Assembly (NCBI RefSeq): GCF_029227915.1
Contig: NC_079884.1
Span: forward strand, 3,844,001-3,908,000
DNA: 64,000 nucleotides
Direction of reading: 5' to 3'
From: Hydractinia symbiolongicarpus
Lineage: Eukaryota > Cnidaria > Hydrozoa > Anthoathecata > Hydractiniidae
The translations under genes were made by a program, and so were the position numbers. Under the pieces are notes generated by a model. It made no database searches, was not told the origin of the DNA, and worked only from the letters and a program-made list of their open reading frames with translations. Of the stretch, positions 4,340 to 51,815 are shown piece after piece. Position 1 is the stretch's first letter; the number at the start of each line of letters is the position of its first letter.

Positions 4340-5010
4340 CCTTTTAATCTTTAATCTTTGATCTTGTTCTCGTCCTCTTTGTTGTTGCCAATTATTCCAA
4401 TTTATTCCAAGCAATTTGGTGCCTTGTTTGACTTGTTTGACTTGTTTCCTTTTTTCTTTTTGTCCTTTTTGTTTTTTCCTTTTTTCCTATCCAATTTTTT
4501 TCCTCGTTCGTTTACTTCATTCGTTTAACTGTTGGTATCTTTTTTCACCAAGTATCCATTTTTACGCTCTCTCCAGGTGTTCTATTGTATCACTTTCTAC
4601 TTGCTTCATTCTTATCTTGTTCTTTATCTTTTCTACCACACTTTCTCACACGTCTCTATATGTTCCATAACCTCTTCATCTACACATTCACACTTCCTTC
4701 CCTTCCCTTGGTTGTTTTCTATGTCATTCATCTCTAAACCAAATTTTTGTATCTGCACTTATCTTTTTTTATTTCAAATATTTTTGCCTTTCAAATTTCT
4801 GATTTTTTTGGTGTCTTAGTTTTTTCATCGTGATTTCTTTTTCTTCACCTTTTTTTTTTTATTTTCTCACATATTTTTCTTTCAACTAGTTTTTTTCATT
4901 CCTGTTTTATCATACCATCCATATCGTTCAACTCTATTTCCAAGTTTTTCCCATTATTTTGTTCCTCTCATTTTTTTATCTAGCACTATTTTTTACCAAG
5001 TCTACTTTCA
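4340..5010. repeat. Pyrimidine-rich low-complexity tract
   Basis: About 670 bp of strongly T/C-biased plus strand with long T runs. It yields spurious Phe/Ser/Leu-rich open frames (for example 4416-4670 and 4532-4819). It is not protein coding as far as I can see. Confidence 0.7.
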
Positions 5011-5014
5011 TCTA

Positions 5015-5400
5015 AGTACTTAGATTTTCATAAAGTATTAGATGTTGGTACTAAATTTGGCCATATTCCAGTCTCCTTTAAAATCCCCCAATATGGTGTT
5101 CCATTTGGCATTCTTAAAATTTTCTTTAATGCAGCAGCCTGTATTCCTTCTAGGTTAACCAAGTCCTTTTCTCTTAGTCTTATCCACACTTCTCAGTTAA
5201 AAACTATAGATGGTACTACAGTTTTTTCATACATTGTTAACTGTACCTCAGTGCTAAATTTGGCGAAATTTTCTTCTCTTCCAATTGATGATATCTCTTT
5301 TATTATGACATTTAGTTTTCCTTTTTATTTTCTGTATCTGCATGTCTAACGTTCTTTCTGATGTTATCCAGTTTCCCAAATACTTGTATTCTTTTGTTCT
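5015..5400 (-). pseudogene. LINE reverse-transcriptase C-terminal fragment, decayed
   Basis: Read on the minus strand from 5400 downward, the sequence gives EYKYLGNWIT, then REENFAKFSTEVQLTMYEK, then a segment with VWIRLREKDL, LEGIQAAALKKILRMPNGTP and YWGILKETGIWP. The order 'YLG - EV.L..YE - E.W..L - LE.IQ...LK.I - TPYWG.L.E.G.WP' is typical of the region after the catalytic YxDD in several non-LTR retrotransposons. At least one frameshift (near 5310) and one stop (near 5195) break it. No catalytic part is present. The fragment lies tail-to-head with the separate plus-strand LINE that starts near 5466. Confidence 0.75.
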
Positions 5401-5417
5401 TCCTACTATACCATTTG

Positions 5418-5453
5418 TTCGGGGGGAGTGGGGGATTCCTCCCCCCCTCTCAA
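5418..5453. repeat. G-rich/C-rich foldback block
   Basis: A short block of G runs followed by attcc and C runs makes an imperfect foldback. A related G-rich block ending in 'ggattcctt' lies at 13961-13984, which suggests a dispersed repeat remnant. Confidence 0.45.
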
Positions 5454-5465
5454 TAACTTTTTATA

Positions 5466-7835
<2,370 letters not shown>

Positions 7836-8055
7836 AAGAACAAAAGGGCGGCAATAAATTTTTCCTTGCGTCAGCACATTTTCTTCTTCAAAATGCCACT
7901 GACTGCTTAAAATTCAATTTCTCTAGTTCTAAAGCGAATTTTTGCATTCTGTTTAAGGTATCTGAAAGTCAAATAAAAGTTACTTAACATATTATCCTGT
8001 TTTCACATAGATAGCATGAAATGTTGCCAAAAATTGTTCGTAATCGGGTTTTTTC

Positions 8056-8917: not shown

Positions 8918-10699
8918 AAAAACATAAACTTAATCGTGGTGGGTTGTGAAGAGTTTCAAAGAACTTTACATGTATCTCCAGACTATCTCTGTTTCTTGTG
9001 ACTATGGTTTCTTGTAAGAATCTCAAGATTTCACATTTTATCAAGTTTCAAGTAAGGATTTCAAAATCACATTTATTTTTTTCAAAAAAGTTGAGAAATA
9101 GCAGCGGCACATCAACAAATTCGGGACTGGTGTTTGACAAAAACACAAAACTTCTGCACTGCTGATAATATTCGCTGGTATTTGCAATAACCTTTCAACG
9201 TAGCATCGAATGACATTTAAAAGAAATTTCACGTTTGATCGTCTCTTCTTATTGCATAAATGGTAGACTTTGTGAGCCCCGAGGAATGATGTCGATGTTA
9301 TTAGTATTAAATTATTTTTATGACTTTATATAATCAAGAATTTAATTTAAGAGTATACAAGATGAAAGACATTCCAAGTAAATGCATCTTTATATGCTTC
9401 AAGCAATCAAAAAGTTAAGAATTTGGCGAGCGGAAATCAAGTCGGGTCTGAAGTTTACTTAAACTGGCTTTTATCACAAGAGATTTCATCACTCTTGGCA
9501 AAGTAAAACTAACTCCAATATTTTATTAAATTGACCGAAGTGAAATTACAAGATTTCCATTCAAAGACTTTATCCCGGAGTAAAATGTGTTTCTTCGATC
9601 AGTACCCATGCTTTAAAGTTATAGCCCTGCTTTTTAGAGTTCTAAAAAAAACGTCTTAAACAGTATAAAACATAATTTGACGGAAGCCTTAGCTCTAAAA
9701 CAAAAAACATAATACGAGCTTTTTTATCGGTTTTACGCATCTTGTAATGCTCGATAATTCGTCACTCACGCGTTCACAGAAAATGTTAATAATTCTTCAA
9801 CTATAAATCTTAAACATTAGTTACTAAACTTTCACGCACAATAAAAAAAACAATGAGCGTATACACAGCTGGTATGAAGAGGGCGTGTCCGAACATCAGC
9901 AATATCCCAAGCCTTTAATTTAACGCCCAGGGTCTTTATTAGCATATTCACAAGCATAGACATCCATGACTTTAGTAAAACGACGGTGAAGTCAACTTGG
10001 CATATTATCAAAATAGTAGATGGTTGTTTTTTGTTGCAATATGTTAAGTCAAATGAAATACTTGTTAGAGAAACACGCTAATTAAAGACTTGATGGTGTC
10101 GTTTCCAGTTTAAAGAGAATTATTAATTTCACTATGCTACAATCTTGAACAAAGTATTTGCAGACAGGGCGTGGGTCTGTCCCTACATGTAATGTGGGTT
10201 GTTCAGTAATTCGCACCATGGGAGGGCTTCTTATACCCAGTTTGTCTGATTTAAATTATTTATCAAACAAGTAGCGAACTTTAGCTATTATAATGTAGTC
10301 CATTTCGAAGAATATCCAAAAAATCAATTGTGCATATATATTAAATGGTACTTTTTCACTTTGAGTTAAATACTCGACCTATTAGACGGAAGCAAAGTGG
10401 ACTATTTCAAAACACCAAGCCACTTCTACTCCTTATGTGTTGTTTAAACAGCCGTTCAGCTTTCGAGACGTTCAAGATCTCAACCAACTGTATCAACAAA
10501 CCAAGCCTACGTGGTGTTTTATCTTTGCATTTAAAATATCGCTGATGGCATATTGGATTTCATTTCTTGTGAGATCTTTGACAGTATACACACTTACTTC
10601 ATCAACAAAGTACAATGTAGGTAGCAATTGTCACCTTTCCTTCTGAAAATCATTGTAAAAATACTGCTAATACTAATGAGACGTTTAATTATATTTTAG
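8918..10699. other. Intergenic and presumed 5' region of the next gene
   Basis: No coding sequence is supported. The stretch must contain the promoter and probably a 5' untranslated exon of the gene starting at 10700, because that ATG directly follows a splice acceptor. I could not place the upstream exon with confidence. Confidence 0.5.
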
Positions 10700-13600
10700 A
10701 TGAAGTCTCTTGTATGTATACTCCTTCTTGGTGTAATTTCGCAAGGATATGCATTTCAATGCGATGCTATGTTTTCTGGACGGGTAAGTGATGTTCAGTT
10801 AAGCATGATACAGAAATATAATTCTGTAATCTTTTAGAGTCAAGCCGATTCAAATGCAAGCAATTCATTTACGAGGAATCCATAGGATCACTACCTAGTA
10901 GAGCAAGATCTTTCAGTAAAACGCTAAATTGATTAAGTTTGTTGTTTTTCTTGTTTAAAGGTATGCGGTAAATACCAGAAAGCTAGCAAATCACTTACTG
11001 ATGCAGTTCAAATAACCAACATGGCCATGGCAGATGCTGTTAGCGAGATTGCTCACGATACTGAAATTTTATTTCAAGCCTTTTTGCCATCGTTGAAAAA
11101 TACCAACATGAAAGATCAAGTGATCCGCTTAGGAAAGCACTCTGTAATTCGTATTTCTTCCAACATGACAACAGAAGAAGTGAAAGCTGTGATGGACGGT
11201 AAAATTTGATATCTTTTCTAGCTATTTTGACACCTATAAATTCGGCTTTGTAAGAACAAGTTTAAATTGGATATCTTAAGGGGGACTTCAAAACGAGTTA
11301 TTGATTTTTGAATTTAGTGACTTACACGAAAAGTAACGTTTAAAATCATCTTAAATATCACATTGACATCCAAATATAAGTAAAAATGACAGAAACGTTC
11401 CATACATATATTGGACATCCATAATTTATTCGATAAGCACTTATCTTGCTATTAAATCAAGCTTTCTAATAAAATAAACTTGAAACTTTTTTTGAACTAG
11501 CTAGTTAGCTATATTCTTCTAAATTTTGCATATAACAAGCTTCTTGCACATAAAGCCAGTCAAAGCAACAACATCACTTTTAAATCTTTTAGCTAGTCGA
11601 ATAGCATTTTTTAACAAATATTGCCCCCCATGTTGTCTTCTTGTGTTTTCCTTGTCAAAACAAACTTTCGAAATACTGATATTTAATATATTTAGCTCAT
11701 TTTAGCGCCAAAAAAATACTAAAAAAAATATTTCTTTTAATTAGAAAATAACAATAAAAATATCAAACTTATCATAAAAAAAAGAAATTATTCATTACCA
11801 ATTTGTATGTACAATACTTGATCTTTCCAGTGGTCTATTTATTTGACACTATTATTCAGAATTTACGAGGATGGAGAGTTTTCCATGTCGGGGAGCTTAT
11901 TTGAACCGCTTTGTAGCCCCTGTAAGGCAATTAATTTTTGCGTAAACTATTTTTTTCTAAAAAATGGTGTACAAGAAGATTAATTTTTGCGAGTCAGCCA
12001 TGTTGAAATATTTCACGATGATTTTTTTTTCCCACTTAATAAACTATTTTAAGACACTTTAATTTTTTTTATATCTTTACTGATAATATTTCGATTTGAT
12101 TTCATTTAAAGCCTACTTATTAACATAATGCTTATATCACAGCGGTTGACTTTTATTTTTATCACTTTCGAAAAATCCAGGAATTTTCAGGGATTATTGG
12201 GCAGAAAATGTTTTGGATAAATTCGCAAACTCGACGAAAATTACCTAAATCAGCGGAGATTATATGAAACACAATGACATTATTATCTGATGTAGGTATG
12301 TTGAAATGGTTAAAGACGTTGTCCACGGTCGGAATGATTGGTGATAAGGAATTTGAAATATTCAGCAAGGTTATTGATGAAGCCATGAAGAAAATTCTTT
12401 CAACCAGCAGTAACGCTTATCTCATCGTCGGTGAGTGTTCTCATCTCAACATTACTATTTCTTACATTAAGCGTCAGACTTTTTATGCTTTGCACTGAAA
12501 TACCAATCATGCGCCAATTATGCCTTTGTAAGAATACATTTTCATTAATTTGGCTTTGGTTAATATTTTCGAAACAAAATTATAATTTAAATTTGCTCTC
12601 AACATGTGATATGGATTTTTGTTTATCCTTTAAAAAGAGATCAGGGGATTTTATAACCCTTTAATTTTTGCGTATTTTTCATTCTGCACTAATCAAAACA
12701 AATCAAAACAACATCAACTTTAAAAGTTTTCAGAAGCATCCCTTCCCTTCTTGCAAATATTTCAATGTTATGACTTTTTTGTTCATTTCGCGCGCATTCT
12801 CCGATGCTGTGACAAATTAAAGATGGTGTTTGATTTTATGTTTTAAGATAAGATTGCGAAAGTCAAAGAAGCTTTAAAAAATGCTTTAAGTGGAGTCAGC
12901 TTTATCACAAGAACTTTAATCTTAAAAGCTGTGGACAGATTCAATGGACGCTTGGATCAGCTCTCAACAAAACTCTGCAGCATCTTGACAGCGTTTGGTC
13001 TTGGAGATAGTAAGTATTTCTAATATATTATCAAAAATCAGAATTTTAAAAATGAACAAATACAGTAACAGGACTTTCGAAAATCTTAAGTTTTTTACAT
13101 GGAATATAAGAATATGTAATTTTGCTTTCACTTTAGGATGTCTGGCTATCAAGGCAAAGATCGATGCAGTCATTGCCAAAGTAACTGGGAAAGTTGCTTC
13201 TGATGCAATCACTAAAGCACAGTCAGCTATTGCTGTGTCTGAAGTGCATCTGTTTGAGATGTTCGAAGAGATTGACAAAGACACACCAATTGTGAAACGT
13301 GGGATTTCAGATAGTAAGTGTATTGCACTATCTAGCGACAATCTTTAAAAGAATCTACAGTTTAGCTACCTATTTTTTTTCTCTTGAAAGGAACATTAAC
13401 AATTCTATAATAATACTCTTCAATATCTATTTTGACTCTTTAACATATTTAAGGAAAGAGCTGCCTCTGTATTCTGTTAACTTTGAGGATACGTATATGC
13501 ACCTGTATCGGAAATCTAAAATTGATTTTCCTGATGCTGATATATGTAATTTATTTTTAGCCTGGAGCAAGGTTCAAAAAGCAATGAAAGATCTGGGAGA

Positions 13601-13772
13601 TAAGATCACGGATGCAACGAAGAAAGCAATTGAGGAGTATAAACCAAAAATTAAGGATGCTTTGACTAAGGTGAAGACAGTTGTTATTGATGGAGCAAGG
13701 AAAATCATTATTGAAGTTCATGGTGGCATTGTAAAAATCCTTACTGACGGAGTGACAGGCACATCAGACTAA
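10700..13772 (+). CDS. Secreted protein with one C-terminal YKPKI domain (six exons, 335 aa)
   Basis: Exons 10700-10783, 10961-11198, 12296-12430, 12848-13009, 13137-13313 and 13561-13772 join to 1,008 bp. The first junction is phase 0 and all later ones are phase 1. The product starts with a clear signal peptide (MKSLVCILLLGVISQGYA), followed by two early Cys residues and about 230 residues that look mostly helical. Then comes a Lys-Arg site (IVKRGISD) and a final about 70-residue domain beginning TWSKVQ, containing EEYKPKI and ending at a stop. That last domain is clearly homologous to both domains of the 727-bp array at 26-32.7 kb, including the KRGISD boundary and the phase-1 exon start. 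I do not recognise the family. A secreted proprotein whose C-terminal domain is released at Lys-Arg is inference. The ATG follows AG at 10698-10699, so a 5' UTR intron or trans-splicing is likely. Confidence 0.85.
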
Positions 13773-16499: not shown

Positions 16500-17345
16500 T
16501 GACTCGACTTAATGCGACATAGATTTGTCCTGAGTGAAAGGCTCGTTGCTTTATTAAATCAAAAGAAACATCAATTTTATCAAATGTTTTTCCTTAAACC
16601 TTGTGAACAGTACAAGCCCATGACAGCATTAGTGGGAAATGCATTCATTTCATAGTAGGTGAAGTTAGATTCTGTTTGTTAAGTTTGATTTCCTTTTCTA
16701 TCCTGCTTATTGGAATAACTTTTTCTTGCATAGCATATGGACTGTTCTCATAGCTTTAACTCCTGTGTTTTCGTCTGCCATTTTTAACCCTAATCCATCG
16801 GTTTTTATGCGATGAACAGTCCCAATCTGTCCGTTAATAAGTTTATCAGATATATCGATATTTGATGTCAACATGACTTTCGCGTTAAGTTTTAAAAGAA
16901 GGTTTTGAGCTAGTCCACCTGTCTCCATTTGAGTGCGGCTATAGAGTTTTTGCACCATTGACACAGGAATATTTTCTGGAATTTTGTCAATGGCCTCTAT
17001 ATTTATTTCATCCGATACTATACTGTTTAGCATATTTTTGTTGTGTTTAGAGGCAGGTTGGTTTTCAGCACAGATATGAATCTCATCTTTGGGGTTGTTC
17101 GGGTCATTTTGCAAAATAAATTTAGATTTCAGTAAATCTTCGTGTCGCGTTTCTAATTTACCTACTCTGATATTGTTTAATAATTCAATCAAACATTGCA
17201 TCTCAGAAATTTTTTAGAAAGATGTGAATTGGCTTAATCTTATGGTGTGCGTTACATGCCAAGCTTTTTGCGTAAGTTCTAACCCAACCATTTACGACTT
17301 CAAAAACTTGATTGAATTTCATTTAATTTTCGTTTTATGGATTTC
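16500..17345 (-). pseudogene. Helitron PIF1-like helicase, Walker region deleted
   Basis: Minus-strand reading gives VVNGWVRTYAKSLACNAHHK then KPIHIFLKNF at about 17300-17207. In intact relatives the Walker A loop would follow at this point. Instead the sequence goes straight to IELLNNIRVGKL, the region normally found well after Walker B. It continues with KLNAKVMLTSNIDISDKLIN, NGQIGTVHRI and, at 16640-16500, LSWACTVHKV, stop, GKTFDKIDV and IYVALSR. The stop stands where Gln is usual in the HKVQG motif. The ATP-binding core is therefore absent. The size of the deletion (roughly 150 residues) is inferred from family knowledge. Confidence 0.75.
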
Positions 17346-17409
17346 ATAGAAAATTCGAGGTTTACAAACCGATGAAAAAGTGTTCCTAATAACTGGGATG
17401 TTTTCGGTC

Positions 17410-19376
17410 TCATTTTTTGTCATTGCTATCGTAATTTTCGTCATTTTCTTGTTCAGCGAAGGAATCAAGATGATTTACATTCGTGTGAAAATTTATCATC
17501 GCTTCTTCAACAAGTTCACCGAATGGTTCGCATATTCTTTTATTTACATTTATAATTTCTAATACACTGTTTTCTAATAATTTCTCTAAGTAAGTACCTG
17601 AGTTTTTGCTTAGCAATTCTGCTTCCTGGCGAAAAGGATAAAACATAAAAAGCAAATGATGTGCATATCCTTCTGGATTTTTTTCTCGACTAGGCACATG
17701 GTACCTTAGAACACCTTTTTCTTTTCGTGAAGACAACGTTTCTTTTATGGACATAAGAGGTAGAGTTTTTGGATAAGGAGGTTCCATGTGAATATCAGCT
17801 TTTATTTCTTCAAGTACTTTTGGTTGGCTGTCATCTTTATCTTTTGGTTTCGGTTTTATTTTCATAGCGTAGCTTGACAAGAACTCAGCATAACACATTT
17901 GTTCCAACGTATCTCCTTTTTTTAAATTCTGGATTTGGTCTATCCATGTATCTATCCAACATACTTCGTTTAACAATATCAGTACTGTCTGGTGGCAAAC
18001 TTAAAATCTCTTCCTCGTTACGACATACCCTATATCTCTTCTCTAGAATGTTACTGCTTGCAAAAACTACAACATGAAATGTCTTTCGTAACCATATTTC
18101 TGGCATTATAATTGCAACTGCTTCTTGGACTGACATTTCACGATGATTTTGATAAGCATTTGCAATTGATTTCATTTGCACAAATAACGAATCACCAGTT
18201 TCTAATGTTTGCGATGCCGCTTTTTTCATCGTTTCTGAAGATTTGTCTTCAGCTTTAGATAGATAAGCGCACATGTAAGAAACCGCTTTATAATAATCAA
18301 GAACAGGCTGAATGTCTATGTTGGCTTCCCATGCCATCAAACCCTCTGTGAAATAGTTATTAATAAAACAAGAATCTGGAAGCCTTTGAAAGTAAATTTG
18401 AAATCCACTATCAGGAGATATGCTCAGTGCGTTTTCATACTCTTTTTTTGTAATGGCTAAACTTTAAAGAATTTCTTCAATTGTACCTGGTTGGATATAA
18501 TTAGTTTCATCTGGATTCAAATTTGAATCTATGTAAGTTTTTACTTTTCTAGTATAGTCTTCCTTTCCTTTAGTTGTGTTTCCCTTTCTTCCTTAGAGAT
18601 GTTGTCAGGTAAAGGCTCAGCGACAATTGTATGGTCTGCAAAAAATTTCCGAGTATCGGCAATTCTTTTTTTATATTTACGACAAGATTTGAAATGAGAA
18701 TGTGTTTGATATGTCGAAACTAGTTTGTAAAGAACTGGGTTGCTTTTTTTATCAGGAAGCTGGCACTTAACTATGTTATCCACAAGGCAATATTTTCTTT
18801 CTTATTATCGTTACGGAAAATTGGTGCATTAGCAACCCATAATAAAGAGTGGATACTACCTCTTACCTGAAATTCAACTCTAATGGTGTAGTAGTTTACT
18901 TTACCTAACGGTCCGTTGACGACTATGGCTTTCAAAAAGGTCTCAACTCGCTATTGGAAATATCTTGATAAAAGAACTGGATTGCTGTTAAGAATCTCAG
19001 TTTGTTGATAATAATTTAGATTGTCGATTTCTTCTTCAGATATATCATTTCCTAGTTGCTTAGTGATGATTTTAACCAGTTCATTCTATCTCAAATTTGC
19101 GCAAGACAAAGTAATAAAAATCGTTGGGAGTCCTAGCTGTTTTACCAGAGCCAAAACTTCAAAGAGAAATCGTTTCGAATATGCAGGAGTTCCTTTCAAC
19201 GTGTTCATAAACGTGAAAGCGTCGTCACTGGCTATAAACGACTTAACTCTTTCTTTTGAATTTAAAGACATCATTTCTGGTGTAAGACCGTCCGCTTTAA
19301 TTTTTTGCATAGCGATATTTATGCGACTTTTTAAATTAAGATTCTCTCCTTGAAACTTCTGTCTATAATTTAACAA
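17410..19376 (-). pseudogene. Helitron replicase region, frameshifted
   Basis: Open pieces at 19376-19086, 18783-18541, 18340-17885 and 17976-17410 read as one chain. It includes FLLNYRQKFQ, FTFMNTLKGTPAYSKRFLFE, LPTIFITLSCANLRWNEL, ILNSNPVLLSRYFQ, MMAWEANIDIQPVLDYYKAV with CAYLSKAED, and PYPKTLPLMSIKE with VPSREKNPEGYAHHLLFMFY. 'KGTP.YWK', 'TLSCAD..W.EL' and 'W.ANID.Q' are standard Helitron replicase landmarks. Stops and frame changes separate the pieces, so no full protein is made. Confidence 0.8.
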
Positions 19377-19385
19377 GAAAACCGT

Positions 19386-19975
19386 CCGGTTTGATCACAC
19401 ATTCGTATTGTACACATACTTTATACTTGAATATTGTATTGGTTATGTTTATATATCTTGTATCTATGGCAACGTTCTTGTTGATATAGACCTGTTGTAT
19501 AATTTTTATTTTACTTGAAAATGGGTGTATGATACCCGAAACGTCGTAAAATGTTGTTTTAATTTGTACACATACACATGGATGTCCAAGTTTTAACATA
19601 AGAAATTTGTCAATCGAATTTCTAATGTCTCATGTAAAAACAACAAGAACTGAAGCAGTTTGAACACTCACACAACACTATGATGATAAATAATTAAAAT
19701 GTATTTATTAAAATATAAAATATACAATGATAAAATTTATAAAATATTAAGGCACAAACAAACTAGTTGTGACTATTTTTCGATAACTGAGGTATGGCTG
19801 CGGAGCACACAACTGGAGTCAATTTTGAACATTATAACATTGTCAACATACAGTAAATCAAAGCAATCATTTCAAGACAATGAGCACCTTCATTTGATGC
19901 AAGATTTCTCGAAATTCGAACAGAATATATATCTACTGATTTCATTATTTTGGGTATACTATATAAATAAACAAA
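19386..19975. mobile_element. Foreign insertion inside the Helitron ORF
   Basis: Helitron coding sequence stops after ARYINPKFC (near 19985, minus strand) and resumes at FLLNYRQKFQ (near 19385). About 590 bp of unrelated AT-rich sequence lies between them, in a place where relatives have continuous coding. The insertion holds a hammerhead-like core on the plus strand at 19512-19550. Exact ends and a target duplication could not be fixed. Confidence 0.55.
19512..19550 (+). other. Degenerate hammerhead-ribozyme-like core
   Basis: The sequence cttgaaaatgggtg, tatga, tacccgaaacgtc has a 4-bp GGGT/ACCC stem followed directly by GAAAC and GUC. This is the stem II - GAAA layout of hammerhead ribozymes carried by Penelope-like elements and retrozymes. 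The CUGAUGA box is degraded to CUUGAAAA, so it is unlikely to be active. Confidence 0.25.
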
Positions 19976-19984
19976 ACTTTGGGT

Positions 19985-20831
19985 TAATATAGCGCGCTAT
20001 TTGTGGTGGCTTTGATTTTGATACTATTCGCGCCCCTTGCAACTTTTCGTTACCACCATGACAGACCGCAGCCCATACCAAATCACACATTTCTACGAAT
20101 GTGTGAAATAATCTTTGGTTGAAATACTTGGTCGGGGAAAATGGTATATTTCTTTTCGTGTGATATCCAAATTTACCGGCTGGAAATAAATCAGGGTGGG
20201 AAAGTTCTTCACAATGCTCATCAGAAATTATTGGTATGGGAATTTTATTCTCGCCTGGAGCAATAACAATATTTCCGTCGTCAATTTGTTGAGGTGGAAT
20301 AGTTGGAACAAAAGATGTTTCTTGGCAAAGCAAGCGATGTTCGCTTAACTGATTTTCATTTTCTTCTTCGCTATCGTCTGAGTTATCCTCAGTCTTGGTT
20401 TTTACGAAACTGATATTTTTACTTGGTGGCGATTTTATTGTAAAGTCAATGTTCATTTCATTTTCACTTTCCCTAGTTTCTTGTTTAGATGTTAAATTAA
20501 TCCATGAATGTGGTATGTTTGTGACATTAATTTCAATGTTTGCATAAAGAGGGTTAACTAGTTTTAGATAATAAAGGACTTCTCGAATAACATCTGGCCT
20601 TACAGACTCTAAGTAAACGTTAGATTTGAAATTGAGTTTCTTCATAACCGCAACTTGCACTACACCATTATTATCCATTTCTCTTGGTAAGACATTGCTT
20701 ATTTCATCAGCTTTTATTGAAACATTACAGATTGACCCTTTTATTTTGGGACACTGACCCTTAGGCATTATTGCAATTCGTTTAAATAAAATTCTTTTGG
20801 GTATAACGATTGGGTATAACTGGGAAATCAA
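19985..20831 (-). pseudogene. Helitron N-terminal coding region
   Basis: An open frame runs from 20831 to 19959. It has NVLPREMDNNGVVQVAVMKK, VRPDVIREVLYYLK, an acidic linker (DNSDDSEEENENQLSEH), EELSHPDLFPAGKFGYH and FHTFVEMCDLVWAAVCHGGN, then ARYINPKFC before the foreign insertion. 'HP.LFP.G.FG' followed by a 'YF..RL' segment is typical of Helitron N-terminal domains. Confidence 0.8.
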
Positions 20832-21762
20832 ACATTTGAAGATTATTAGATACGGCTTGGGAAGAAATTTTTCCTTTGTAAGTTTTAAATGGCATGTCGT
20901 ACATATGTATTCTTTGCCATCAAAACTTTGTATTCTAAAACGAATGTTCTTCTGAAATAATCGACATTGCGAAATAATTTAATTGACCGCTTATATACAA
21001 AGAACGATTACATATGACACAAATATAAAATCGTCCATTCTCAATGCATTTTTTAAATTGGTTTATTTTTGCGCTAGGATCGGGCAAAATGTTAACACGC
21101 GTACGTTTAGTTGCTTTACCTTCTTGGGCTGCATTTTCTTGCGTTTGTTGGCCCTGTTCCACTTTTTTAAAATTGCCTATTGATTCTTTTAATTTAGCTT
21201 GGCCTTGTTCTATTTTTTTGATATTTGCTTATCGACTCTCTTAGCTCAGCTTGACCCTGTACCATTTTTTGATATATGCCTATTAATTCTTTTACCTTAG
21301 CTTGGCCATGTACTGTTTTTCTATAAGTGTTTGTTGACTCTTAATGCTTTACTCGGCCTTTTTTGGATTTACGGTACTTTCTGTTCTGCTCTGGTTTTTC
21401 CAGGAATGGAAAGCATAATGTTATCGGTTATCTGTTCAGTTGTCAGTATGTTTAAAATATTGAGTTTCAAGACACCTTCTTTGACCAGGGGACACATATA
21501 TTTTGCGTATGTAGTTTTTAACTTGTTGCAATGGATCAAATTTTAAAAGGACTGATGTACCACATTCTGTTATTTGTCCTAAACTATTTCGGCTATGAGG
21601 ATCAAATAAATAAATTTGTGGGTGACCCCAAACTATAGCAAAACTATCGCCGCTTACAATGCCCAATATTCCTTTTCCTTTATCGGAATCTGATGAATTA
21701 TGAAATGTACGTAAAGTAGTGCTATCATATTGTAGAAGAACTACTTTGTTCATCACTAACAT
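20832..21762 (-). pseudogene. Helitron N-terminus: protease-like, coiled repeats, Cys motifs
   Basis: From 21762 to 21436 the minus strand gives GDSFAIVWGHPQIYLFDPHS, RNSLGQ and GTSVLLKFDPL. This resembles the Asp-His-containing C-terminal part of a papain-like (tegument/OTU-type) protease domain found in some Helitrons. It is followed by about three 21-residue repeats (motif GQAKLKESI..) with one frameshift, then a Cys-x2-Cys motif (CVICNRSLY) and a CTTCH motif near 20900. The protease assignment is tentative. Confidence 0.5.
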
Positions 21763-25995: not shown

Positions 25996-28900
25996 ATGAA
26001 GTTTGCATTAGCATTCGTTGTCTTGTTGGCAATCACAAGCACCATCTCATCGTACTCAATCAATCGCCAAGATGAAGAAGGATTTATCGAAAATTTTGAA
26101 GAAAAACGCGCCCTTACAGATTGTATGATTTTTTTCTTGAATTTCCACTTTTATCATACTTCTATAATAATGTCTTAACTTCTTCCAAATCTAAATTTTT
26201 CACTTCTAACAAATTTTTCCCATTTCAGTTTGGAACAAAGTAAAGACCGCTGCATCAAAACTGAAGGACGACATCAAAGGCAAGGTATTAAAAGTCTTGG
26301 AAGAGTACAAACCAAAGATTGTTGGTGCCTTAAACAACTTCAAAAAAGTGGTTGTTGATGGTACCAAGAAAGTCATCATTGAGGTGTGTGGACAAATTGT
26401 TCGAGTTATTGCTGATGGTGAAAGTGCTACATCTGGTGGCATCTGTCCATCTTCAGTTAAGGCTTCAGAAATTTACGCTGAGATTAGTGATGCTCAACCA
26501 AGCGCTCTCTCCTTTGGTGACAGTAAGTAGTGAAATAAAGGCAAATTTTTACCTACTTATTGCCTATCCTTCATCCCATTTTCGTTTCTATAGTTAGAAC
26601 CCCATTGTACAAGTTATGTTTGTTTTTAGTTTGGGCCAAAGTAAAAACAGCCGTTACTGATCTTGGAGACAAAATCGACGCCAAAACAAAAGAATTGATC
26701 AATAAATACAAACCACAAATTGTCGAAGGATTAAAAAAAGTACACAAAGTCGTCGTTATTGAAGGAAAGAAAATCGTCATCCAGATTATTAACGATGTTG
26801 TAAAGGTTGTTGTTGGTGGAGATGATGGGGCGTCGACTACTGTTGTCAAGAGGGGTATTTCTGACAGTAAGCATGCTTATATTTATCTATCACAATTGTG
26901 CATTATTCACTGCTTTGTAAATTGGACTCTGAACGAACTGGATATTATACTTCAGCTTGGAACAAAGTAAAGACCGCTGCATCAAAACTGAAGGACGACA
27001 TCAAAGGCAAGGTATTAAAAGTCTTGGAAGAGTACAAACCAAAGATTGTTGGTGCCTTAAACAACTTCAAAAAAGTGGTTGTTGATGGTACCAAGAAAGT
27101 CATCATTGAGGTGTGTGGACAAATTGTTCGAGTTATTGCTGATGGTGAAAGTGCTACATCTGGTGGCATCTGTCCATCTTCAGTTAAGACTTCAGAAATT
27201 TACGTTGAGATTAGTGATGCTCAACCAAGCGCTTTCTCCTTTGGTGACAGTAAGTAGTGAAATAAAGGCAAATTTTTACCTACTTATTGCCTATCCTTCA
27301 TCCCATTTTCGTTTCTATAGTTAGAACCCCATTGTACAAGTTATGTTTCTTTTTAGTTTGGGCCAAAGTAAAAACAGCCGTTACTGATCTTGGAGACAAA
27401 ATCGACGCCAAAACAAAAGAATTGATCAATAAATACAAACCACAAATTGTCGAAGGATTAAAAAAAGTACACAAAGTCGTCGTTATTGAAGGAAAGAAAA
27501 TCGTCATCCAGATTATTAACGATGTTGTAAAGGTTGTTGTTGGTGGAGATGATGGGGCGTCGACTACTGTTGTCAAGAGGGGTATTTCTGACAGTAAGCA
27601 TGCTTATATTTATCTATCACAATTGTGCATTATTCATTGCTTTGTAAATTGGACTCTGAACGAACTGGATATTATACTTCAGCTTGGAACAAAGTAAAGA
27701 CCGCTGCATCAAAACTGAAGGACGACATCAAAGGCAAGGTATTAAAAGTCTTGGAAGAGTACAAACCAAAGATTGTTGGTGCCTTAAACAACTTCAAAAA
27801 AGTGGTTGTTGATGGTACCAAGAAAGTCATCATTGAGGTGTGTGGACAAATTGTTCGAGTTATTGCTGATGGTGAAAGTGCTACATCTGGTGGCATCTGT
27901 CCATCTTCAGTTAAGACTTCAGAAATTTACGTTGAGATTAGTGATGCTCAACCAAGCGCTCTCTCCTTTGGTGACAGTAAGTAGTGAAATAAAGGCAAAT
28001 TTTTACCTACTTATTGCCTATCCTTCATCCCATTTTCGTTTCTATAGTTAGAACCCCATTGTACAAGTTATGTTTCTTTTTAGTTTGGGCCAAAGTAAAA
28101 ACAGCCGTTACTGATCTTGGAGACAAAATCGACGCCAAAACAAAAGAATTGATCAATAAATACAAACCACAAATTGTCGAAGGATTAAAAAAAGTACACA
28201 AAGTCGTCGTTATTGAAGGAAAGAAAATCGTCATCCAGATTATTAACGATGTTGTAAAGGTTGTTGTTGGTGGAGATGATGGGGCGTCGACTACTGTTGT
28301 CAAGAGGGGTATTTCTGACAGTAAGCATGCTTATATTTATCTATCACAATTGTGCATTATTCATTGCTTTGTAAATTGGACTCTGAACGAACTGGATATT
28401 ATACTTCAGCTTGGAACAAAGTAAAGACCGCTGCATCAAAACTGAAGGACGACATCAAAGGCAAGGTATTAAAAGTCTTGGAAGAGTACAAACCAAAGAT
28501 TGTTGGTGCCTTAAACAACTTCAAAAAAGTGGTTGTTGATGGTACCAAGAAAGTCATCATTGAGGTGTGTGGACAAATTGTTCGAGTTATTGCTGATGGT
28601 GAAAGTGCTACATCTGGTGGCATCTGTCCATCTTCAGTTAAGACTTCAGAAATTTACGTTGAGATTAGTGATGCTCAACCAAGCGCTCTCTCCTTTGGTG
28701 ACAGTAAGTAGTGAAATAAAGGCAAATTTTTACCTACTTATTGCCTATCCTTCATCCCATTTTCGTTTCTATAGTTAGAACCCCATTGTACAAGTTATGT
28801 TTCTTTTTAGTTTGGGCCAAAGTAAAAACAGCCGTTACTGATCTTGGAGACAAAATCGACGCCAAAACAAAAGAATTGATCAATAAATACAAACCACAAA

Positions 28901-31900
28901 TTGTCGAAGGATTAAAAAAAGTACACAAAGTCGTCGTTATTGAAGGAAAGAAAATCGTCATCCAGATTATTAACGATGTTGTAAAGGTTGTTGTTGGTGG
29001 AGATGATGGGGCGTCGACTACTGTTGTCAAGAGGGGTATTTCTGACAGTAAGCATGCTTATATTTATCTATCACAATTGTGCATTATTCACTGCTTTGTA
29101 AATTGGACTCTGAACGAACTGGATATTATACTTCAGCTTGGAACAAAGTAAAGACCGCTGCATCAAAACTGAAGGACGACATCAAAGGCAAGGTATTAAA
29201 AGTCTTGGAAGAGTACAAACCAAAGATTGTTGGTGCCTTAAACAACTTCAAAAAAGTGGTTGTTGATGGTACCAAGAAAGTCATCATTGAGGTGTGTGGA
29301 CAAATTGTTCGAGTTATTGCTGATGGTGAAAGTGCTACATCTGGTGGCATCTGTCCATCTTCAGTTAAGACTTCAGAAATTTACGTTGAGATTAGTGATG
29401 CTCAACCAAGCGCTCTCTCCTTTGGTGACAGTAAGTAGTGAAATAAAGGCAAATTTTTACCTACTTATTGCCTATCCTTCATCCCATTTTCGTTTCTATA
29501 GTTAGAACCCCATTGTACAAGTTATGTTTGTTTTTAGTTTGGGCCAAAGTAAAAACAGCCGTTACTGATCTTGGAGACAAAATCGACGCCAAAACAAAAG
29601 AATTGATCAATAAATACAAACCACAAATTGTCGAAGGATTAAAAAAAGTACACAAAGTCGTCGTTATTGAAGGAAAGAAAATCGTCATCCAGATTATTAA
29701 CGATGTTGTAAAGGTTGTTGTTGGTGGAGATGATGGGGCGTCGACTACTGTTGTCAAGAGGGGTATTTCTGACAGTAAGCATGCTTATATTTATCTATCA
29801 CAATTGTGCATTATTCACTGCTTTGTAAATTGGACTCTGAACGAACTGGATATTATACTTCAGCTTGGAACAAAGTAAAGACCGCTGCATCAAAACTGAA
29901 GGACGACATCAAAGGCAAGGTATTAAAAGTCTTGGAAGAGTACAAACCAAAGATTGTTGGTGCCTTAAACAACTTCAAAAAAGTGGTTGTTGATGGTACC
30001 AAGAAAGTCATCATTGAGGTGTGTGGACAAATTGTTCGAGTTATTGCTGATGGTGAAAGTGCTACATCTGGTGGCATCTGTCCATCTTCAGTTAAGACTT
30101 CAGAAATTTACGTTGAGATTAGTGATGCTCAACCAAGCGCTTTCTCCTTTGGTGACAGTAAGTAGTGAAATAAAGGCAAATTTTTACCTACTTATTGCCT
30201 ATCCTTCATCCCATTTTCGTTTCTATAGTTAGAACCCCATTGTACAAGTTATGTTTCTTTTTAGTTTGGGCCAAAGTAAAAACAGCCGTTACTGATCTTG
30301 GAGACAAAATCGACGCCAAAACAAAAGAATTGATCAATAAATACAAACCACAAATTGTCGAAGGATTAAAAAAAGTACACAAAGTCGTCGTTATTGAAGG
30401 AAAGAAAATCGTCATCCAGATTATTAACGATGTTGTAAAGGTTGTTGTTGGTGGAGATGATGGGGCGTCGACTACTGTTGTCAAGAGGGGTATTTCTGAC
30501 AGTAAGCATGCTTATATTTATCTATCACAATTGTGCATTATTCATTGCTTTGTAAATTGGACTCTGAACGAACTGGATATTATACTTCAGCTTGGAACAA
30601 AGTAAAGACCGCTGCATCAAAACTGAAGGACGACATCAAAGGCAAGGTATTAAAAGTCTTGGAAGAGTACAAACCAAAGATTGTTGGTGCCTTAAACAAC
30701 TTCAAAAAAGTGGTTGTTGATGGTACCAAGAAAGTCATCATTGAGGTGTGTGGACAAATTGTTCGAGTTATTGCTGATGGTGAAAGTGCTACATCTGGTG
30801 GCATCTGTCCATCTTCAGTTAAGACTTCAGAAATTTACGTTGAGATTAGTGATGCTCAACCAAGCGCTCTCTCCTTTGGTGACAGTAAGTAGTGAAATAA
30901 AGGCAAATTTTTACCTACTTATTGCCTATCCTTCATCCCATTTTCGTTTCTATAGTTAGAACCCCATTGTACAAGTTATGTTTCTTTTTAGTTTGGGCCA
31001 AAGTAAAAACAGCCGTTACTGATCTTGGAGACAAAATCGACGCCAAAACAAAAGAATTGATCAATAAATACAAACCACAAATTGTCGAAGGATTAAAAAA
31101 AGTACACAAAGTCGTCGTTATTGAAGGAAAGAAAATCGTCATCCAGATTATTAACGATGTTGTAAAGGTTGTTGTTGGTGGAGATGATGGGGCGTCGACT
31201 ACTGTTGTCAAGAGGGGTATTTCTGACAGTAAGCATGCTTATATTTATCTATCACAATTGTGCATTATTCATTGCTTTGTAAATTGGACTCTGAACGAAC
31301 TGGATATTATACTTCAGCTTGGAACAAAGTAAAGACCGCTGCATCAAAACTGAAGGACGACATCAAAGGCAAGGTATTAAAAGTCTTGGAAGAGTACAAA
31401 CCAAAGATTGTTGGTGCCTTAAACAACTTCAAAAAAGTGGTTGTTGATGGTACCAAGAAAGTCATCATTGAGGTGTGTGGACAAATTGTTCGAGTTATTG
31501 CTGATGGTGAAAGTGCTACATCTGGTGGCATCTGTCCATCTTCAGTTAAGACTTCAGAAATTTACGTTGAGATTAGTGATGCTCAACCAAGCGCTCTCTC
31601 CTTTGGTGACAGTAAGTAGTGAAATAAAGGCAAATTTTTACCTACTTATTGCCTATCCTTCATCCCATTTTCGTTTCTATAGTTAGAACCCCATTGTACA
31701 AGTTATGTTTCTTTTTAGTTTGGGCCAAAGTAAAAACAGCCGTTACTGATCTTGGAGACAAAATCGACGCCAAAACAAAAGAATTGATCAATAAATACAA
31801 ACCACAAATTGTCGAAGGATTAAAAAAAGTACACAAAGTCGTCGTTATTGAAGGAAAGAAAATCGTCATCCAGATTATTAACGATGTTGTAAAGGTTGTT

Positions 31901-32666
31901 GTTGGTGGAGATGATGGGGCGTCGACTACTGTTGTCAAGAGGGGTATTTCTGACAGTAAGCATGCTTATATTTATCTATCACAATTGTGCATTATTCACT
32001 GCTTTGTAAATTGGACTCTGAACGAACTGGATATTATACTTCAGCTTGGAACAAAGTAAAGACCGCTGCATCAAAACTGAAGGACGACATCAAAGGCAAG
32101 GTATTAAAAGTCTTGGAAGAGTACAAACCAAAGATTGTTGGTGCCTTAAACAACTTCAAAAAAGTGGTTGTTGATGGTACCAAGAAAGTCATCATCGAGG
32201 TGTGTGGACAAATTGTTCGAGTTATTGCTGATGGTGAAAGTGCTACATCTGGTGGAATCTGTCCATCTTCAATTAAGACTTCCGAAATTTACGTTGAGAT
32301 TAGTGATGCTCAACCAAGTGCTCTCTCATTTGGTGACAGTAAGTAGTGAAATATTGGCATTTTTTTACCTATTTATCGTCTGTCCTTCTTCCCATTTTCG
32401 TTTCTATAGTTAGAACCCCATTGTACAAGTTATGTTTCTTTTTAGTTTGGGCCAAAGTAAAAACAGCCGTTACTGATCTTGGAGACAAAATCGACGCCAA
32501 AACAAAAGAATTGATCAATAAATACAAACCAAAAATTGTCGAAGGATTAAAAAAAGTACACAAAGTCGTTGTTATTGAAGGAAAGAAAATTGTTATCCAG
32601 ATTATTAACGATGTTGTAAAGGTTGTTGTTGGTGGAGATGATGGAGTATCGACCACGAATTATTGA
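25996..32666 (+). CDS. Secreted polyprotein-like precursor, nine tandem two-domain YKPKI units (1,629 aa)
   Basis: Exon 1 (25996-26122) encodes a signal peptide (MKFALAFVVLLAITSTISS), an acidic prosegment and EEKRALTD. Nine repeats follow, offset by 727 bp. A exons are 26229-26522 plus n x 727 (294 bp) and B exons 26630-26866 plus n x 727 (237 bp), n = 0 to 8. The last B exon (32446-32666) ends at a stop after VSTTNY. All junctions are phase 1, so each exon is symmetric. The A domain begins WNKVK, has EEYKPKI and two Cys (CGQI, GGICPSS). The B domain begins WAKVK, has NKYKPQI and ends VVKRGISD. Lys-Arg therefore precedes each unit, and the last B lacks it. Total coding length is 4,890 bp. This is predicted to be a secreted precursor cut by convertases into about 177-residue units. 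The function is unknown and no family is recognised. A poly(A) signal lies at 32782. Confidence 0.88.
26229..32666 (+). repeat. Nine-unit tandem array, 727-bp period, with four-unit higher-order period
   Basis: Each unit holds exon A, a 107-bp intron, exon B and an 89-bp intron. Units are nearly identical including introns, with only scattered single-base differences in the interior. Three marker bases repeat every four units. The base at 26622 + 727n is G in units 1 and 5 and C elsewhere. The base at 26910 + 727n reads C,T,T,C,C,T,T,C. The base at 27234 + 727n is T only in A2 and A6. The first A exon and the last A/B pair carry more private changes than interior copies. Confidence 0.95.
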
Positions 32667-47367: not shown

Positions 47368-48343
47368 TATTTCGTCCTTCAAATCTTCGTTGTTTTATTC
47401 AATTTGATAGTTCTTTTATTAGAATGCGTTGTTTTGAACCGAAGAAGTTTTCGAGAGCTCGTAACGATTGCTTGAACGACGCATGCTCAGTAGAAAGCTC
47501 TTTTGAAATCAGTCGTGCATGCATGAGAAAGTTGAAGTAAACAGTGTTAATAATTTTTTCATTATGAGAATTCTAAAAATATTTTTACTATAAATAAGAG
47601 GTTCAATTTCCAATTTAAATTTTTTGGGAAGAATAAGAATGCCACATTATTAAGAAATTTTACTACCCTTTATAAAGCTAGAAAAGTTTCGCTTTTATTG
47701 AAAAAATTCTCCAATAAATCAGTTAAAAACCCAACTCGCTCCCCGCGTTTTTTCTCTGGCACTTCTTTCTTTATAAAAAGGCCTGGGATCGATATTGGTT
47801 TAAAATTTCTAAATATTTCGCTTTGCGCATGATTTTATTCGTTGAGTTGAAATGTTCTGATAAACCTTTTCTCAGCATGTTCGGTGAAAATCACTGAGCG
47901 TGATTTGATTAATTAGATGCAATCAAGCGAAACAAAAAAATATAAAATAAAATTTTTTCAAAATGTTAAGCCGCGTCTTGTGTTAAAAAAATTGATTTTG
48001 AAGTTGGAAATATCATCTAAGGTAGGACAGAAATTTATAGTAAGTCTATAGTAACAGACACTGTGTTAACAAACAAACCTGTACATAACAGACATTTATT
48101 ACAGCATATTATATTTATTATTTTGTTTAACGTTCTTAAGAACATCACTACTTACAGAGTGAAAGGTTGTACGTAGAAATTATTGTTGATTTTCTTTCAT
48201 TATATAAAGTGTGACTTCAATTAGAATTCCCTGTGTATCAACTCAAAACAGTGAAAGGTTTTATTTCTCTTCATAACGCTTTTCATAACGTCAAACTTTC
48301 TTTCATTTAGAAATGGCCATTTAACTTTGACAATGTGTCCAGC
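47368..48343. promoter_or_regulatory. Divergent intergenic region between two TRIM-NHL genes
   Basis: 976 bp separate the two start codons, so this must hold both 5' UTRs and both promoters. Short upstream ATGs exist before the plus-strand start (48313, followed two codons later by a stop, and 48333, out of frame and closed after nine codons). A shared bidirectional promoter is plausible but not shown. Confidence 0.6.
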
Positions 48344-51300
48344 ATGGCAGCGCACATCGATATAAACACACACACCAATGTCGAGCATGACCACACAAAA
48401 CTAAAAGACATCGACCTAACCTGTCGTATATGTAAGCGGACGTTCTTTCACCCACGTGTACTGGATTGTTTACACACATTCTGTGAGGAGTGTATTATTA
48501 ACAACGTTGCAAAGATTGAGCATGAAAATACAGAAAAGACGTATATAAAGTGTTTTCATTGTACCGAAATAACTCAAGTTCCGGAAAACGACGTTTCGAT
48601 GTTACCGTACAACTTTTTCGCAAATAACGCTATGGACTACCTGCTTATACAATGCACCAAAGAGAACGCCATTATTTGCACCAGCTGTAGCGATGATGCT
48701 GACGCAATATCGCGTTGCATGGACTGCTCTGAATTTCTCTGTATGAAATGTGTTACTGCCCATCGCAGGATCCGCGTGACAAAGGATCACAAAATAATCG
48801 CGTTAGACACATTGCGATATGATAAGAGTAGTGTTCATCGCAATGTGTATTGTCCAGACCATGAACCTGAGGTTTTTACATATTACTGCGAAGTTTGTCA
48901 GGATTTAATATGCAAAGAGTGTACTATCCTGGAACACAGAGGACATAAATTTGAACGTAAGTTTTTGAATTTTATACAGACAGCGTAACCAAACAAGTTT
49001 AATTTTTCTTTTTTTCACCCTTTTTCAAGACTAGTTGTTTTGAACTTGCACAACTTCTGATGCTATGCAAAATCTCTCAATTGGACAGAATCAAAGTTTT
49101 TTTATGTAAAAAGTTTTTCTAAAAAAAAAATTGCAGCAAAATTACCTTTCTGTTTCTAATTACGTTGACAGGATTGACCGAAGCTTTGGAGTCTCAGAAA
49201 CCTACCATTCTGAAGTTACTTGAAGAAAATGAAAAACAAAAGGTTCCGCCAGTCGAACGGGCCGTCGATGAAGTTCAAGACATGGCAGCTAGATTGCACG
49301 CGCGGACTGTTGCTACGAAACAAGCCATAAAAAACTGTGGAGAACAGTGCATTCGAGCTATAGAATTTAGATGCCAAGAGCTTTTAGGAACTATTGACAG
49401 CATTTACAAGCGAAAAAGCCGAATTCTCCACGATCAACAGAAAGACTTACAACTACGATTAATGAAAAACAAGTCGGCTACGGAATTTGTTAATTATGCA
49501 TTCAAACATGGTAGCGAGGCTGAAATATTTGAATTGCTTGATGTCATGAAAATGAGACTGACAAAATTAAATTTAGAAAATCTGGATTACAAAGAGCCAG
49601 ATGATAATGACGTCATTGATCATGTTTATGATACAGACAACGTTAAAAACATCGCTGAGAATTTGGGGAAAATATCCACATCCACGGTATTTCTGTCAAA
49701 AACGCGCCTCTATGGACCTGGTCTTAACACCGGAAAAGTTGGGATTGAAACTTTTTTTGTAATGGAAGTGTTTGACCATAACGGAGATCCTTGCATTGAG
49801 CATGCGCACGACGAATCGATACGCATTAAGGTCCAGGCTCCTGAAGGCTTTTACGTTAACAATAAATTACATAATAACAACGACGGCACGTTTGTCGTGC
49901 GTTATACACCCGTCACTAAAGGTAAACACGATGTGACGGTAAAGATAAGAGGAAGAAATTTTCCAAACAATCATTTTGTGGTGAGAGTTTACGATGGCAT
50001 TGATTACCTGAAAGTAAGTTTATGACCCGCTTTGTAACTACTTTTTTCTTTGCAGGATCATATTAAAGTTAAGTTTTAATTGGTTTTAATTATCACTAAC
50101 AAACCTTGTTCCTAGCAACAACAAAATAAGAAAAAAACGTTGGAGTAAGATTAATTACAAGACTTCTTTTCTGCTTCAAGTACGAAGACGACAGTTCTAT
50201 AACAGCTACTCTAGTTTTAGTTCGCTCGTCATTAAACAACTTGAATTAACTTGAGGCTTATGTCACGTTAATACTCTTCTTCATTTTATTTTTTACATTC
50301 CGCCATTTATATTCTTCCATTTCTCTTTATATGGTAAATCACCTGACAGATCCTTAGAGTCTAACAGATCATTAGAGACTAACAGAGATTTAAAGTCTGA
50401 TATATAATACATTGCAAAAATGTTTTATTCGGTTAAGATCTTTTCTCCAACTTTATCAAAACAAAATTAGTTAAAACCGCATGAGAAATCTTTTACAAAA
50501 CTATTAAAGTTTGGCTCGACTAGACTTGTATATTAAAAATCGTGAAGTTCAAATTAAAAAATATTATCCCATATAATAAGTATTCCTCATCAATGAATCA
50601 ACAAATAGAACCACAAAATTGTTTAAAATCGTTCTTACATATCTGTTATAGATTGAGAGTCCCTTCCTAACGTTTGGATCGTACGGTAGCAAACCTTCAG
50701 AACTGAAACAACCATGGGGTGTGGCTGTCAATAAAGATGGCCATCTATACGTCACTGATCATGGAAATCATAGAGTGCAAGCATATGATAAGTTTGGTGC
50801 ATTCATAACTGAATTCGGATCAAAGGGAACAAAAGATGGACAGTTTACAGGACCAACTGGGATTGCTGTTGATCAAAGTGGTATCGTTTTCGTCGCTGAT
50901 TGGGAGAATCATCGAATTCAAGTGTTTAGTGCCGACGGAACGTTCTTGGCAAAGTTTGGCACAAAAGGTAGAGTAAAAGTCATCATAAATTATTGTATGT
51001 AATAGTCAACTTCAAGCCCAGGCCCGTAGCGTTTTATATATAAGTAGCAAAGCGCTATAGACCTTGGAATTAAGGTTTAAAATGTCAGTTTCACGCTTCA
51101 AATTTTCATCAAACGTCGTGTAGTTTCAATTTTTGGAACTGGTTGAATTATGGTGAAACTTTTACAATAACCAGTATATAGCGGACACTTTACATTAATT
51201 CTTACTGAGTACCTGCTCATACAGGTTTATGTTAGTTTTATAGTACATGTTTGGAATATTCCATTATTTTATTTATTTTTATTTCTAGGCAGTGGCGTTG

Positions 51301-51815
51301 GTCAATTATACCATCCAGCCGGAGTAGCTATCGATAGAAACGGTTACGTTGTTGTCGCTGAGCGTGATAATCACCGGTTACAAGTTTTTACCGTGGATGG
51401 GAAACCAATTCTTGCTATTGGCTCTCGAGGTAGCGATCCTGGCCAATTAGATTCGCCCACGCATTTGGCAGTTACAGAGGATAATTCATATGTGGTTGCA
51501 GATGCTGGAAACAACCGGTTAATTTGTGTTGACAATGGTGGAATATTTGTAAAAGAAGTGGGAGTGAAAGGTACCGGATCAGGTGAGTTTAATAGACCAT
51601 CCGGTATTGCTGTAGATCGTGAAGGTTACGTTATCGTCGGTGATTTTCATAATCATAGAATTCAAATTTTAACACCAGATTTAAAATATTTTGGACAATT
51701 TGGAACAGAAGGTAATAAAGACACTCAGTTTAAGCATCCCTCAGGTGTTTGTTTAACAGATGAGGGACATGTTGCGGTTGTAGACAGATATAACCACAGA
51801 GTGCAGATATTTTAA
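48344..51815 (+). CDS. TRIM-NHL protein, paralogue (four exons, 765 aa)
   Basis: Exons 48344-48956, 49172-50013, 50652-50967 and 51289-51815 join to 2,298 bp with agreeing phases. The start is the ATG at 48344; an in-frame GTG lies three codons upstream. The RING has C27, C30, C42, H44, C47, C50, C70 and C73. B-box 1 is near residues 112-150 (CTSCSDDADAISRCMDCSEF) and B-box 2 near 165-200 (ICKECTILEHRGHKF). Exon 2 carries the coiled coil and the filamin domain (DGTFVVRYTPVTKGKHDV). Exons 3-4 carry NHL repeats (PWGVAVNKDGHLYVTDHGNH, GIAVDQSGIVFVADWENHRI, GVAIDRNGYVVVAERDNHRL). It has the same architecture as the minus-strand gene but only three coding introns, and positions are largely not shared. 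Likely an E3 ligase/RNA-binding regulator by family. Confidence 0.93.

Follow-up and report, generated by a model that had tools for sequence, protein, structure and literature searches.

A nine-unit gene of Hydractinia symbiolongicarpus with Lys-Arg sites between two-domain repeats: a candidate secreted polyprotein

Analysis of a 64,000-nucleotide (nt) stretch of the genome of Hydractinia symbiolongicarpus, a colonial hydroid used as a laboratory model (contig NC_079884.1, positions 3,844,001 to 3,908,000; hereafter the window, within which coordinates are counted from its first letter), identified a plus-strand gene at 25996-32666 that encodes nine consecutive copies of a two-domain unit, A (98 amino acids, AA) followed by B (79 AA). 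A Lys-Arg (KR) dipeptide recurs every 177 AA, once as EEKR and eight times as VVKR, and its placement between units is conserved in the closest relatives of the gene. We believe that the gene probably encodes a tandemly repetitive secreted polyprotein that is cut into about nine A+B proteins, yielding an abundant secreted product. If so, a class of polyproteins described as rare in nature in the available portion of the paper on the structure of an ABA-1 unit (PMC3079579) would be represented in a cnidarian and built from an unrelated, undescribed domain. New here are a three-unit sister gene, the domain family itself, the regular delimitation of A+B pairs by KR in the gene and its closest relatives, and a recent duplication of four units.

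The nine-unit gene

The gene comprises 19 exons that splice into a single 1629-AA frame with one stop, and the computed mass of the precursor is 175 kDa. All 18 introns are GT-AG introns in phase 1, with sizes of 106, 107 or 89 nt. Exon 1 (25996-26122) encodes a putative signal peptide and prosegment, YSINRQDEEGFIENFEEKR, followed by ALTD. The protein begins with MKFALAFVVLLAITSTISS (MKFALAF...), a signal-peptide-like start for which both the signal peptide and its end were assigned by eye, and continues into a prosegment of 19 AA, six of them acidic, with a net charge of -3 and a KR end (codons 26104-26109), so that the junction before unit 1 reads ...FEEKR/ALTD. The acidic prosegment ending in Lys-Arg that had been predicted from the DNA alone is recovered in charge and ending, and it is short.

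In the splice model, the A exons of units 1 to 8 lie at 26229-26522, 26956-27249, 27683-27976, 28410-28703, 29137-29430, 29864-30157, 30591-30884 and 31318-31611, and the corresponding B exons at 26630-26866 (KR codons 26848-26853), 27357-27593 (KR 27575-27580), 28084-28320 (KR 28302-28307), 28811-29047 (KR 29029-29034), 29538-29774 (KR 29756-29761), 30265-30501 (KR 30483-30488), 30992-31228 (KR 31210-31215) and 31719-31955 (KR 31937-31942), all on the plus strand. Unit 9, which comparison of the arrays identifies as a diverged terminal unit, consists of exon A at 32045-32338 and exon B at 32446-32666 and is 171 AA long. As originally noted, units 1 to 8 each end in VVKRGISD; unit 9 ends in VSTTNY and the stop codon without a KR.

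Nine near-identical A+B pairs had also been predicted, and a 300-nt reference stretch indeed recurs in nine copies at an exact spacing of 727 nt between 26224 and 32339, seven copies sharing 99% identity with the first copy and the ninth sharing 97%. The exon model is supported because identical splice rules, applied to the DNA of a second copy of the locus, reproduce the RefSeq protein LOC130662798 exactly. With near-perfect repeats and an exact RefSeq match at the second copy, the nine-unit repetition is not a product of chance. The putative mature unit has a computed length of 175 AA, a mass of 18.7 kDa, an isoelectric point (pI) of 9.17 and a lysine content of 15%. Domains A and B are homologous, with 36-43% identity over 76 and 54 aligned residues, and represent divergent copies of one domain of about 70 residues.

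Lys-Arg placement and processing of the precursor

The family was collected in three protein searches, with 4, 39 and 34 matches, the last two having scored only the approximately 8000 candidates that shared most words, and the resulting family counts 65 distinct proteins (P0001-P0065), of which two come from Hydractinia and the remainder are mostly unnamed environmental sequences. P0065 (E 1.6e-4; domain scores of 6-12 bits) is probably a chance match and is kept in the counts. The six closest multi-domain relatives (P0008, P0049, P0051, P0055, P0057 and P0058) are 39-47% identical to the query. When they are taken together with the window gene and LOC130662798, KR is found in 17 of 17 short linkers leading from B to A and in none of the 26 long linkers leading from A to B. 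It should be noted that the six relatives were first picked from a list of KR-bearing proteins and then re-derived without regard to KR; ranking by similarity to unit 1, among matches with at least two linkers, placed the same six on top, with KR in all seven of their short linkers and in none of their 14 long ones. Since the A-B linker has no KR in the gene and its closest relatives, the A+B pair would be the product.

In the wider family, the 63 non-Hydractinia matches contain 56 KR dipeptides, 34 just before a domain and 22 elsewhere, and the spacing from the Arg to the Trp of the domain is exactly 6 in 30 cases (0.51 expected by chance), 5 in two and 7 in two. The KR-preceded domains belong to 19 of the 63 proteins and represent 16 distinct junction sequences, the matches being partly redundant and the rows not independent. 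Junctions without KR often retain G-(F/I)-x-(D/E)-x-W, and because the motif that follows KR, G-(I/F)-x-D-x-W, thus recurs where the dipeptide is absent, the KR seems to have been added as a cut site.

We propose that one message, spliced from symmetric phase-1 exons carrying one domain each, would give rise to the 175-kDa precursor, which the signal peptide would route into the secretory pathway. There, a dibasic convertase would cut after EEKR and the eight VVKR sites and thereby release about nine copies of a basic A+B protein of approximately 175 AA (18.7 kDa, pI 9.2), in which A would be a compact domain of the alpha+beta type, extended by a strand-like linker, and B a second domain. The cutting enzyme would be a PC1/3-, PC2- or kexin-like protease rather than classical furin. 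In this manner a high dose, or bulk supply, could be obtained from one message. The most likely use would be as an abundant protein stored in the secretory granules of a gland cell or nematocyte, and a carrier or coat role could be guessed at by analogy with nematode polyprotein allergens.

Several observations weigh against cleavage into A+B proteins. Across all 63 non-Hydractinia matches, KR is present in only 28 of 103 short linkers, in two of 39 long ones (P0012 and P0014) and in none of 27 linkerless places, and 44 of the 63, many of which are fragments, have no KR just before a domain; domain arrays can evidently exist without KR, and outside the closest relatives multi-domain forms may generally stay uncut. 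Moreover, VVKR departs from the classical furin motif, which has Arg at P4. Strong selection is not demonstrable either, as coding changes are too few: units 8 and 9 differ with dN 0.0078 and dS 0.0955, and unit 4 differs from the first unit of the second copy by three synonymous and four non-synonymous changes. The predicted precursor architecture with dibasic sites is well supported by the RefSeq-matching exon model and by the KR pattern of the six closest relatives; it is the proposed cleavage that the 44 matches and the missing P4 Arg temper.

The same counts lend some weight to a giant repetitive secreted protein that remains uncut, or is cut only at the prosegment, and whose 18 domains would form a beaded chain, perhaps in mucus or in a layer outside the cells. 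Inter-domain KR is missing from many relatives that are arrays, such as P0040 with eight near-complete domains and no KR junction, and 75 of the 103 short linkers are devoid of the dipeptide; we nevertheless judge an uncut chain unlikely, as it would not explain why KR occupies every short linker and no long linker of the six closest multi-domain relatives. A nine-fold count produced by the assembly, with a real number of about three to five units and an otherwise ordinary gene, is in our view very unlikely. The near-identity of units 1-4 and 5-8 and the three units of the second copy are what such an artefact might leave, but the array is 6.7 kb long and a PacBio HiFi assembly, presumably the one analysed here, has been published for H. 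symbiolongicarpus, as stated in the available part of PMC10411563, the reads of which should span it.

A third explanation, a nematocyst protein of the venom or capsule, is compatible with a polyprotein and differs only in the destination of the units, which would be capsule contents, with the prosegment KR as the usual mark. A signal peptide and a propeptide ending in KR, reported for cnidoin and described as conserved across diverse nematocyst proteins in the section of PMC4321713 that was accessible, recur in Nematostella minicollagens according to the accessible section of PMC3145756; the Hydractinia gene has the same layout, its signal peptide being assigned by eye, and the unit pI of 9.17 would also fit. 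In those descriptions KR ends the propeptide, whereas in the Hydractinia gene it recurs at each unit but the last, and no common domain was found. Pfam scans detected no collagen or toxin domain and KR marks ordinary secreted precursors too, which leaves this destination somewhat unlikely.

Among known systems, the cleaved polyprotein that we favour most resembles the nematode polyprotein allergens (ABA-1 and kin), which, in the parts of PMC3079579 available, are described as tandem near-identical units with regular basic cut sites that supply a small exported protein in bulk. Near-identical units in one open reading frame (ORF) and regularly spaced basic sites between them are both found in the Hydractinia gene; the class is described as having very small introns or none, and here a small intron of 89 or 107 nt lies between every two domains of the repeat region. 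The same source describes ABA-1 units as seven-helix lipid binders, said to occur only in nematodes, and gives K/R-x-K/R-R as an example of the cut motif (PMC3079579), which VVKR and EEKR do not fit. In contrast to the seven-helix fold, the Hydractinia unit consists of two predicted alpha+beta domains in a hydrozoan host, and no sequence relation to the nematode allergens was found. Filaggrin-type polyproteins likewise consist of tandem units separated by cut sites, again as far as PMC3079579 was available; the Hydractinia protein is not known to be a terminal-differentiation product, and Pfam scans of its units returned no filaggrin family.

The domain family

A 70-position domain profile, applied at loose thresholds, finds the domain in the matches, and 42 of the 65 family matches (P0041 included) carry at least two near-complete domains in one ORF, although every domain in Hydractinia is its own exon. 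In nine of 17 JGI matches, 85% or more of the contig is taken up by the ORF, and such matches resemble cDNA; several ENA matches, inspected by eye, resemble single exons running into a splice site. Of the proteins from the merc source, which we take to be marine, 25 of 35 start with MG, many of them mid-domain, and these starts may have been left by template-switch primers of cDNA synthesis, hinting at an RNA origin.

In a tree of 76 domains, drawn from the window genes and the matches of the first two protein searches only, window A groups near P0028, the domain of a neighbouring window gene and the P0008 domain that follows KR; window B falls in another part of the tree, and the deep branches are weakly supported. 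A strand-like motif of the YVxIDD type occurs in several A linkers, and P0055 and P0057 also have the two Cys of A. In P0022, P0023 and P0061 a repeated cysteine-rich segment, ATCVGGETAKCAQKCGPP, stands before or between domains, no Pfam family being reported for these proteins. Some domains of P0002, P0003, P0038 and others carry an 11-residue helical insert before a YK motif, which resembles amphipathic 11-mers.

Scanned against Pfam, exon A, exon B and relatives yielded no family common to the members and no model covering the domain. At E 0.01 over 42 members, the commonest families were Apolipoprotein (five) and DUF4745 (four). The match to DUF4745 (PF15923) is partial, starting mostly near profile position 58 and reaching at most 122 of 133; against a cut-off of 34.8 bits, the whole multi-domain proteins P0041 (47.6), P0001 (44.6) and P0040 (37.2) score above it, whereas exon A alone reaches 14.5. 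Apolipoprotein (PF01442), which a precomputed column of the database assigns to 11 of the 65 family matches, was rejected, as its best scores of 38.6 bits (P0048) and 35.2 bits (P0012) fall below the cut-off of 90 bits. Similarly, when single sequences were compared with the PDB, HIV protease was matched (E 0.002), but these matches disappeared with the family profile (best E 0.2) and are attributed to chance. Hydra ks1, considered as a lead, led nowhere. No prokaryotic relatives of exon A were found in genome contigs and no viral relatives of P0035 or exon A in viral contigs, both scans being sensitive to close relatives only.

AlphaFold2, run on exon A with an alignment of 15 other rows (three from the window and 12 from matches), predicts three helices followed by a meander of four strands and one more strand in the linker, with a predicted local distance difference test (pLDDT) score of 77 and a predicted template modelling (pTM) score of 0.69, and a weaker model of P0008 predicts the same pattern per domain. 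Comparison of the domain models with solved and viral structures gave no convincing match. Literature searches turned up no paper on the nine-unit gene, the Hydractinia papers having been available in portions. Having many environmental sequences and no covering Pfam model, the family is available for study of structure and function.

Second copy, array evolution and the surrounding window

Searches of the 480.9-Mb genome with 75 AA of exon A at E 0.001 and with the family consensus at E 10 each found at least 26 exons, all on the contig of the window and in two clusters, the window itself and a region near 25.38-25.39 Mb that holds the same neighbour gene and a three-unit array. Spliced by the rules of the window gene, the second-copy DNA gives P0041, letter for letter the uncharacterized 567-AA protein of RefSeq LOC130662798, which is the same gene but has three units instead of nine and unit residues of its own. 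Collinearity of the two regions extends across the window and for 40 kb or more to either side, with 91-99.6% identity and transposon-sized gaps; the full 144 kb compared is collinear in this way with a partner at approximately 25.31-25.47 Mb, 21.5 Mb away. The second copy lacks a reverse-transcriptase element (RVT_1) that lies at 4771-7938. A probe taken 500 kb upstream matched repeats, and no partner was listed near 24.87 Mb; this argues against a very extended collinearity, unless it only reflects a missing repeat. Because the available text of PMC11067881 gives a heterozygosity of 1.33% and that of PMC10411563 reports 6.5% of BUSCO genes as duplicated in HiFi contigs, the second copy is likely an uncollapsed haplotype, a large segmental duplication being the alternative reading.

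Within the window array, the block of units 1-4 (26229-29136) recurs as units 5-8 (29137-32044). Over 727 nt, W1 and W5 show three differences, all located in unit 1, and the pairs W2-W6, W3-W7 and W4-W8 show none, W1-W9 denoting the window units and D1-D3 those of the second copy; because the blocks match pairwise almost without differences, the four units were duplicated recently. Compared over 606 nt, the internal units of each array have been homogenised: those of the window differ among themselves at 0-6 sites and the two of the second copy at six, while units from different arrays differ at 10-15. The terminal units W9 and D3 are eight sites apart and each other's closest, and at least 20 from every internal unit. 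This pattern fits a fixed terminal unit and, inside each array, unequal exchange with homogenisation.

The suggestion of dose amplification within one transcript is reasonable in this light, as unit number varies between nine and three in the two locus copies, and bulk supply would be its consequence; the two copies also make dose and unit homogenisation directly testable. As a tentative extension, possible rather than probable, the gene would be a copy-number-variable, concertedly evolving cnidarian polyprotein of an undescribed secreted domain family, packaged as A+B pairs, with its dose set by unit number (nine and three on two haplotypes of one Hydractinia individual), an origin independent of the nematode polyprotein allergens and a fold possibly unseen among solved structures.

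The neighbouring gene of the same family, LOC130612807 (P0064), occupies 10700-13772 on the plus strand, with exons at 10700-10783, 10961-11198, 12296-12430, 12848-13009, 13137-13313 and 13561-13772. Our 335-AA model is identical to the last 335 AA of the RefSeq protein, which has 109 further residues upstream of the modelled start, 77 of them from 10386-10616. A signal-peptide-like start and a 261-AA part ending in KR (codons 13295-13300) precede a single domain, and because the junction before that domain, PIVKRGISD/TW, has KRGISD/TW in common with the nine-unit gene, both genes appear to share the cut module.

Elsewhere in the window, the minus strand at 16700-21000 carries what is presumably a Helitron helicase-like stretch. 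A TRIM-like gene at 48311-51812 encodes a RING and a B-box and, as we assume from their resemblance, NHL-like repeats. Finally, a tandem array at 57922-58697 consists of 4.8 copies of a 162-nt unit with 97% matches.

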